A stretch of DNA of 44,915 bases from Gammaproteobacteria bacterium. GTDB taxonomy: Bacteria; Pseudomonadota; Gammaproteobacteria; UWMA-0217. The translations under genes and the position numbers were made by a program. Of this stretch, positions 13,546-15,135 are shown piece by piece. The DNA is taken from NCBI GenBank assembly GCA_027081275.1, contig JALWKV010000148.1:1-44915 (forward strand), in the 5' to 3' direction. The notes below the pieces were generated by a model. It searched no databases and had not been told where the DNA came from. It worked only from the letters and a program-made list of their open reading frames with translations. The number at the start of each line of letters is the position of its first letter. Position 1 is the stretch's first letter.

Positions 13546-14214
13546 ATGACCATCACCGACAGCCTCGATCTGCTCGAAAGACTGCTGCGCCTCGATCTCG
13601 ATGTGACCGCGCGCGATCCGTGGTGGTGGCCGGAGAGCGGCAGCTTTGCGATGGTCGTCGGCGCGATCCTGACGCAGCAGACGCGCTATCAGAAGGTGGA
13701 GGCGTCGCTGGCCAACCTGCGCTCGCATGGGGAGATCACGCCCGAACGGCTGGCCGGGCTGGAGGAGGCGGCGCTGGCGCGGGCGATCCGGCCGAGTGGC
13801 TTCTATCGCACCAAGGCCGCGCGGCTGCGGCTGTTCGCCGAGGCGCTGCTGGCCGACTTTGGTGATTTCGGCCGTTTCCAGAGAGAAGTGGATCGGGACT
13901 GGTTGCTGGCGCGGAAGGGGGTCGGCAGGGAGACGGCCGACGCCATGCTCTGCTACGGCTGCCGCCGCGAGGCGATGGTGGTCGATGCCTATACCGAGCG
14001 GCTGCTGCGCGGCTTCGGGCTGACGTTCGGCGGATACGACGAGATCCAGTCCTGGCTGCTCGACGGTCTGGCGGCTCCGCGGCCGCTAAGGGAGCTAATG
14101 GGAGAGATGCCCGTCGCCCGCGTTCACGCCCTCTACCACGGCTTGATCGTCGAGTACGCCAAGCGCCATTCGCGCGGGCGGGAGGTCGATGTCACCCCGC
14201 TGTGCGTTTCCTGA
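13546..14214 (+). CDS. HhH-GPD superfamily DNA glycosylase (endonuclease III-like)
   Basis: A 222-residue base-excision glycosylase. The early block AMVVGAILTQQTRYQKVEA and the helix-hairpin-helix RKGVGRETADAML are followed by the catalytic Asp in VVDAYTERLL. In endonuclease III the hairpin has Lys at the position held by Glu in GRETA. The enzyme therefore lacks the lyase lysine and is probably monofunctional. The four-Cys iron-sulfur loop is also absent from the C-terminus. These features recall MagIII-type 3-methyladenine glycosylases. I chose ATG 13546 over the upstream TTG at 13501. The 3' end overlaps the convergent small gene by 23 bases. Confidence 0.86.
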   Translation: MTITDSLDLLERLLRLDLDVTARDPWWWPESGSFAMVVGAILTQQTRYQKVEASLANLRSHGEITPERLAGLEEAALARAIRPSGFYRTKAARLRLFAEALLADFGDFGRFQREVDRDWLLARKGVGRETADAMLCYGCRREAMVVDAYTERLLRGFGLTFGGYDEIQSWLLDGLAAPRPLRELMGEMPVARVHALYHGLIVEYAKRHSRGREVDVTPLCVS

Positions 14215-14593
14215 GCGTGGCGAGGATGACGTCGATCATCCCCTCCTCCTTCTCCTCCCGGCCGACCGGACAGGTGTAGCTGATCTGCAGCAGCGTGTCG
14301 TCGCTGCCCAGGAACCATTCCCGCCAGTAGTTGCCGTCGCCGTCTTCGTAGATCAGCTTGATGCCGCGAAAATCGCCGAGCTCGACGTCGGTCGGCCTGA
14401 TGCCCTGTTCGAGCTGTTCGCCCGCGAGAAAGAGGAGGTCGTCCCTGCTCACGGCGCTGTCGGTCGGCGGGCTGCTGATGGCCAGCTCGCCGACGCCGTC
14501 GGGATGATAGAGCGTGGCGATGGCGTCCTCGACTTCGCAGATCCAGTCGTCGGGAAGTCTGAGCTGCCAGTTGCCGTGTGCGAAGGTCTGCAT
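14192..14593 (-). CDS. Small hypothetical protein
   Basis: A 133-residue protein of unknown function starting MQTFAHGNWQL, with AGGAA six bases or less before the ATG at 14593. It is acidic, lacks a signal peptide or membrane spans, and looks like a small alpha/beta fold, with tryptophan-containing stretches LPDDWICEVED and YWREWFLGSDD. I do not recognise the family. Some small type VI secretion or DcrB/PsbP-like proteins share this size and hydropathy, but that is only a thought. The frame stays open upstream to 14815 through the hairpin array, which is unlikely to be coding. It overlaps the convergent glycosylase gene by 23 bases at its 3' end. Confidence 0.66.
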   Translation of the reverse strand: MQTFAHGNWQLRLPDDWICEVEDAIATLYHPDGVGELAISSPPTDSAVSRDDLLFLAGEQLEQGIRPTDVELGDFRGIKLIYEDGDGNYWREWFLGSDDTLLQISYTCPVGREEKEEGMIDVILATLRKRTAG

Positions 14594-14654
14594 TTCCTGT
14601 CCGGAGAGATACCGTTTCGGCGGGGCCCTCTTGCGGCGCGCCCCGAGCGTTGAG

Positions 14655-14815
14655 GAGGTTGTCGCAAAAGCGGTAGCTTTGCGGCAACCTCGCGCAGCAC
14701 AAGGATGTGCTGCCAGAAACAACGACGATAAGTCGTTGTTTCTGAGAGAACAAGGAAAAATCACGCTTTTTCCTTTTCGTGTGTCGCAAAAGTCCCGGAC
14801 GGACTTTTGCGACAC
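14655..14815. repeat. Array of five consecutive hairpins with different stems
   Basis: Five adjacent inverted repeats fill 161 bases. (1) 14655-14691: GAGGTTG arm, about 16 bp with one wobble and one bulge. (2) 14694-14713: GCAGCACA/TGTGCTGC. (3) 14714-14744: CAGAAACAACGAC, 13 bp perfect, loop GATAA. (4) 14752-14775: AAGGAAAAA/TTTTTCCTT. (5) 14781-14815: GTGTCGCAAAAGTCC, 15 bp perfect. Stems differ from one another, except that hairpins 1 and 5 share TGTCGCAAAAG or a near match. It could be a structured RNA, a nested palindrome insertion or an array of repeat-family units. Confidence 0.85.
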
Positions 14816-15104
14816 CCTCTTGAGGGGAAGGGTTGCTTTTGCGGTGCCCGGATCATAGCAGATTCGGGGTCAGGCGTTGCGGCCGACGCAGGTCCGGCGG
14901 GGCGTCGGCATGACGCGGTGTCGGTTTACAAGATACTGAAATGAAATGGTTATTCCGTGCAGAGAGGGCGGGTGCTGTTCGTGTTCCCCGCTGCCCGCAT
15001 TACTTTTTGTTTACTAGATGTAAGGCTTTTGTGACAATCCATTCATCGGTTTTCTGGCCTTGCTTGTACCATCTCCATACACCAATTCCCGCGAGATTGT
15101 AGCC

Positions 15105-15135
15105 AAAGCCCTCTCCCCGGTGGGGAGAGGGCTTT
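15105..15135. repeat. 14-bp perfect hairpin, dispersed palindrome family
   Basis: AAAGCCCTCTCCCC and GGGGAGAGGGCTTT pair perfectly around a three-base loop. The right side continues CGTGACAG. A related unit occurs at 19021-19066, where GGGGAGAGGGCTTTTGCGACAG is nearly the same. Being upstream of the phosphate permease it is more likely a dispersed repeat than its terminator, though an attenuator role is possible. Confidence 0.7.

Follow-up and report, generated by a model that had tools for sequence, protein, structure and literature searches.

Positions 14655-14815 of the window, by which we mean the whole analysed stretch of 44,915 nucleotides, contain five hairpins with distinct stems arranged nearly end to end. 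This raises the question of what kind of genetic object such a row of hairpins represents. In the preliminary description a structured RNA, a nested insertion of palindromic elements and a leader of the neighbouring 133-residue gene (14192-14593) were offered as explanations. A repeat search recovered all five inverted repeats, with arms of 14 bp (93%), 8 bp (100%), 9 bp (100%) and 15 bp (100%) and a 13-bp stem of hairpin 3 within a 21-nt match of 86%. The region was correctly described as neither a simple tandem repeat nor a CRISPR array. Its right end had been placed 4 bp too short, the true unit being 14655-14819. The RNA fold of the 173 nt from 14650 to 14822 has a minimum free energy of -98.8 kcal/mol versus -48.6 ± 4.4 for dinucleotide shuffles (z = -11.5), and folding of the other strand as DNA gave z = -12.4. 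A chance origin of the five-hairpin fold is excluded. The parts of the unit are listed below, in the orientation (plus strand) chosen so that GGA falls in the loops of hairpins 2 and 5.

14650..14654, no strand: left target-site duplication of 5 bp, TTGAG (flank comparison)
14655..14819, plus strand: whole mobile element of 165 bp, GAGGTTGTCGCAAA...TTTTGCGACACCCTC (dispersed copies, ends, covariance-model search of its own genome)
14655..14691, plus strand: hairpin 1, the left terminal inverted repeat and its own reverse complement (fold, repeat search)
14694..14713, plus strand: hairpin 2, GCAGCACAAGGATGTGCTGC (alignment, loop counts)
14701-14706, plus strand: hexaloop of hairpin 2, AAGGAT, of the form A-N-G-G-A-N
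14714..14744, plus strand: hairpin 3, 13-bp stem, loop end AA(G) (alignment)
14748..14778, plus strand: hairpin 4, 12-bp A/T-rich stem with hexaloop YCRCRY, in the window TCACGC, and one extra base in the window copy (alignment)
14781..14815, plus strand: hairpin 5, 15-bp stem including the right terminal inverted repeat, GGA loop, in the window CGGAC
14820..14824, no strand: right target-site duplication, TTGAG (flank comparison)

The genome from which the window derives (G000, 297 contigs) was searched for further copies. At least about 40 were found by blastn, the best of them 86-96% identical over 165 bp, and a covariance-model search gave 96 matches, or about 80 once weak opposite-strand matches to the same copies were removed. 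The copies start with GAGG(T/G)TGTCGCAAA and finish with TTTTGCGACACCCTC; the terminal inverted repeats are GAGGNTGTCGCAAA. A perfect 5-bp duplication flanks 16 of the 25 copies with intact ends, and four more show a match at 4 of 5 positions. When the flanks of copy L011 were joined with one duplication, the product matched, at 68 of 68 positions across the junction, a repeat copy in L017 that lacks the insertion. This filled/empty pair is direct evidence of precise insertion. The joined flanks of L015, L016 and L019 yielded similar empty-site spans at 85-93%. A blast search for orthologous empty sites in the fetched sister-species loci returned partial synteny only; the empty-site evidence is therefore paralogous. 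The unit has the characteristics of a miniature inverted-repeat transposable element (MITE): terminal inverted repeats, a duplication of fixed length, a filled/empty pair, many copies, a length below 600 bp and no transposase of its own. The region in the window is one copy of a single mobile non-autonomous element. A nested insertion of palindromes is the wrong explanation, since the five hairpins move together, enclosed by a single pair of ends and a single target duplication. Stems scattered singly as unrelated repeats, the outcome named beforehand as refuting the preliminary description, were not seen; the entire hairpin series recurs together. Other copies of the unit lie next to unrelated genes and point either way, so a role as leader or attenuator of the neighbouring gene was rejected; the window copy stands upstream of this minus-strand gene only through insertion. 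On the minus strand, the frame of the 133-residue gene is open upstream across the whole element to a GTG in the right end (14192-14815, 207 codons). The protein of this gene gave no Pfam match.

Most copies are intergenic, often near gene ends, and their orientation relative to neighbouring genes, as judged with a simple longest-ORF gene caller, is random. In the flanks of the G000 copies the 5-bp targets tend to sit in palindromic contexts rich in C on one side and G on the other (CCC-NNNNN-GGG), which suggests a preference for pre-existing hairpin loops. A palindrome at 15103-15135, CCCTCTCCCCGGTGGGGAGAGGG, lies near the gene of a Pit phosphate transporter, and the same sequence is the insertion target of the five-hairpin copy L009. 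Other short palindromic families of G000 with different interiors also have GAGGNTGTCGCAAA ends (L067, L073, L076, L081, L093 and others); such interiors include CCCTCTCCC...GGGAGAGGG and GCCGGTTCAAGCGCAGCGGAACCGGC together with CCCGATCCGCTACGGCTTGATCGGG. The 14-mer end sequence GAGGNTGTCGCAAA occurs 187 times in the genome with one mismatch allowed, compared to 9 times for the reversed control.

Among GTDB species genomes the pattern of hairpin 4 alone had at least 100 matching stretches, from Gammaproteobacteria, Zetaproteobacteria (Mariprofundus) and other proteobacterial MAGs. Cultured hosts of the core include Mariprofundus erugo and Mariprofundus sp. EBB-1. Related stretches carry the five hairpins in the same order with rewritten stems. 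Hairpin 1 varies among genomes with the type of end, and the remaining core was used to build the covariance model R1 from 15 diverse sequences. In a search of mostly draft MAGs, with sampling that favours members resembling these 15 seeds, R1 detected the core in 70 of 369 genomes sampled from the class (E <= 1e-4) and in 45 of 398 genomes of a phylum-wide sample (E <= 1e-6), usually in several copies each. Rfam 15 contains no family for the window, the element or 18 related loci: the matches at gathering score were tRNAs only, and at E <= 5 only sub-threshold chance matches, for example to microRNA models, were obtained. No open-access paper on such an element was found; ISfinder and closed papers lay outside this search, and single subfamilies may already be described. 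A phage or plasmid origin was rejected, as INPHARED phages and PLSDB plasmids contain no similar DNA, and a single IMG/VR match (L216) lacks the five-hairpin architecture around the pattern. In a single-contig genome (G022, locus L238, 1501-1871) three core units follow each other in direct tandem at a spacing of 124 bp, hairpin 5 bordering hairpin 2 of the next unit with no hairpin 1 between them. A similar tandem pair with 130-bp spacing was found at L062.

The core is combined with different ends. Ends of the type GGAANCTCTGA occur at 4-bp YTAR-like sites, CAGGYTGTTGA ends with a TTAG duplication, the window's type GAGGNTGTCGC with a 5-bp duplication and the zetaproteobacterial type GATGACTTCG with a 6-7-bp duplication. 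The same core has ends of at least three unrelated types, which differ in the length of the duplication (4, 5 and 6-7 bp), so different transposases move it. At locus L300 a sister species (G001) contains an IS of 1186 bp that has GGAACCTCTGATCAATT at its ends and encodes an IS5-family transposase (NF033581). This IS carries the GGAACCTCTGA ends of one element subfamily, adjoins a TTAG flank and is the autonomous partner for the GGAANCTCTGA end type. For the window's GAGG ends, an IS1182-like IS from another genus (G162) has ends, GAGGCTGTAGAAAAAG, that are similar, not identical. In the 297-contig assembly of G000 no transposase with PF01609, PF05598 or PF13751 and none with exact GAGG ends was found; it was possibly lost from this assembly.

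Is the hairpin structure itself under selection? In a MAFFT alignment of 15 sequences double-sided changes were present in 25 of 38 base pairs, and 95.3% of the cells were paired versus 76.7% after shuffling and 42-49% with the partners slid. An alignment of 93 distinct copies to the model gave double changes in 34 of 38 pairs, with 95.8% of cells paired (73.7% shuffled, 43-55% slid). The 15-sequence result is the cleaner one because the larger alignment was fitted to the model. Pairing of the core hairpins 2-5 is selected while their sequence drifts. The structured RNA of the preliminary description is thereby supported at the level of covariation, the fold being kept by compensatory double changes. 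Stem changes among the resident G000 copies comprise 74 G-T and 76 A-C; between families the ratio is 56 to 41, an excess that is not significant (p = 0.15). As neither comparison shows a significant excess of G-T, it is not proven that RNA rather than DNA is the folded molecule. The equal decay within the genome suggests that selection acts on the jumping lineage and does not keep single insertions for a function in the host.

The loops were analyzed in a weighted alignment in which similar sequences were down-weighted (effective N ~25). The loop of hairpin 2 reads A (.95), N, G (.94), G (.98), A (.96), N, with both N positions almost free, and that of hairpin 5 N, N, G (.95), G (.88), A (.97), T (.75); stem positions average ~1.05 bits. 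GGA is located in the loop of hairpin 2 in 84 of 94 copies, of hairpin 5 in 89 and of hairpin 3 in 4, and at least 24 different hairpin 2 stems bear the motif. A model-independent count was made on 79 matches picked by the hairpin 4 pattern alone. GGA-loop hairpins were present in 50/79 and 65/79 of these; control windows next to them had 3-4/79, and the opposite strand 1/79. The loops of the core are selected. Hairpin 4 loops are YCRCRY and not GGA. This hexaloop and the AA of the hairpin 3 loop (A3 columns 114-119 and 70-71) are conserved as well; the conservation of hairpin 4 is partly built into the search pattern, and copies found without the pattern also have YCRCRY.

Loops of this kind are known ligands of CsrA. 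The SELEX consensus of CsrA is RUACARGGAUGU, presented in a hexaloop, and the repeat of CsrB is CAGGA(U/A/C)G (PMC7652899); ANGGAN in hairpin loops is the CsrA/RsmA motif (PMC3791407). Manual comparison of hairpin 2 of the window, GCACAAGGATGTGC, with the SELEX consensus gave agreement at 11 of 12 positions. We therefore favour, with a probability of about one half, the reading that this mobile, structurally conserved MITE carries an RNA domain predicted from its loops to bind CsrA. The terminal repeats within hairpins 1 and 5 are the recognition sites of DDE transposases acting in trans, of the IS5 family for one end type and probably IS1182-like for the window's GAGG ends. The ends, the duplications, the empty site and the matching IS show that the unit is cut and pasted into intergenic DNA with duplication of 4-7 bp. 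Read-through from a neighbouring promoter in the sense direction would yield an RNA that presents ANGGAN-type loops on hairpins 2 and 5, and each transcript could capture one CsrA dimer, like a two-site mini-CsrB. Since the decay of resident copies seems to favour neither strand, selection probably acts on copies that still jump, and most likely the loops would help the element to spread or to be tolerated rather than regulate each host locus.

Several observations weigh against binding of CsrA. The random insertion orientation counts against it. The gene csrA is present in 62 of 70 element-bearing and 251 of 299 other genomes, which is no clear difference, and in one genus (g126, two MAGs, 95% and 55% complete) no csrA was detected even at E <= 1 and the GGA loops are kept. 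These loops are counter-evidence, and co-occurrence with csrA is uninformative to mildly unfavourable. No sigma-70-like promoter or terminator was found in or near the element. The linear spacing of the two GGA loops, ~95 nt, exceeds the bridging range of 10-63 nt (PMC7652899) unless hairpins 3-4 shorten it. The conserved loops of hairpins 3 and 4 have no explanation in CsrA binding.

Of the alternatives, a role of the hairpins as DNA survives best, and we regard it as doubtful. To excise or integrate the element, the transposase would require the folded single strand, exposed at replication forks or as cruciforms; the loops with GGA and YCRCRY would be contact points for this enzyme or for a host ssDNA-binding factor. 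The DNA stems of the other strand are equally strong, insertions show no orientation bias, resident copies decay without strand preference and the terminal repeats lie within hairpins 1 and 5, all of which a DNA role would account for. It does not fit the constancy of core and loops across unrelated ends and duplication lengths, hence different transposases, and ordinary IS5 and IS1182 elements require their terminal repeats only. Moreover, the loop motif is confined to one strand and corresponds to a known RNA ligand.

Alternatively, the core of a selfish MITE might bind another GGA-loop factor, such as the ribosome via its anti-Shine-Dalgarno sequence, Hfq or an unknown protein. The GGA loops kept in the genus without detectable csrA and the conserved YCRCRY and AA of hairpins 4 and 3 argue for such a factor; we nevertheless judge it unlikely, as a loop of six bases with A in position 1 and no constraint on positions 2 and 6 is a specific fit to ANGGAN. 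Least probable is a portable device that terminates transcription, insulates or stabilises RNA and so lets the host tolerate the insertions, an idea put forward for REP and ERIC elements: it would suit stems that are strong in both directions and intergenic sites close to gene ends, but no terminator-like site was found and neither conserved loops nor a particular stem order would be needed.

Returning to CsrA, a wider version of the favoured reading is offered tentatively. Unrelated transposon ends may have acquired a selfish, widely shared RNA domain that captures CsrA and dispersed it in the form of MITEs among Gamma- and Zetaproteobacteria, its tens of scattered copies forming a mobile and evolvable CsrA sponge. 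Such a sponge would link transposon load to the regulation of carbon storage and lifestyle of the host. Should the loops bind CsrA, a global post-transcriptional regulator would be open to exploitation by non-coding mobile DNA. Plasmids tap into such regulation through RsmA homologues of their own (PMC9928087).

Among known systems, CsrB, CsrC, RsmX, RsmY and RsmZ resemble the element in their row of hairpins with ANGGAN/CAGGAUG loops (PMC7652899), whereas the element has only two GGA loops, neither promoter nor terminator, and dispersed mobile copies. No Rfam Csr/Rsm family matched it at gathering score or at E <= 5. REP/BIME, ERIC, RUP and Correia sequences are likewise dispersed intergenic palindromic repeats, some of them mobilised in trans; the element differs by its five distinct hairpins in fixed order and its DDE-type ends and duplications. 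The movement of REP elements depends on RAYT (HUH) enzymes and leaves no duplications of 4-7 bp. Assignment to REP/REPIN, which are single short palindromes with a GTAG-like tetranucleotide and no duplication, was rejected in view of the five hairpins, terminal repeats and 5-bp duplications. The IS5-family IS at L300 (1186 bp) matches the ends of one subfamily, but the element has no transposase and shares only ~11-17 terminal bases with it. The closest relatives are MITEs, i.e. non-autonomous derivatives of DDE IS such as TIMEs or the Nezha type. Like these the element is short and geneless, has terminal repeats, duplications and a high copy number, and is matched by a full-length IS in a relative. 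Unlike them, it has an interior made of a series of hairpins with covarying pairing in many genera, and this interior occurs with unrelated ends. The inside of a MITE is generally considered to have no function. In this element compensatory mutations have preserved it in many genera and with different transposase ends, which implies a selected function inside a non-autonomous element. The family, absent from Rfam 15 and annotatable at once with R1, also provides an unusually clean data set on what selects the interior of a MITE.
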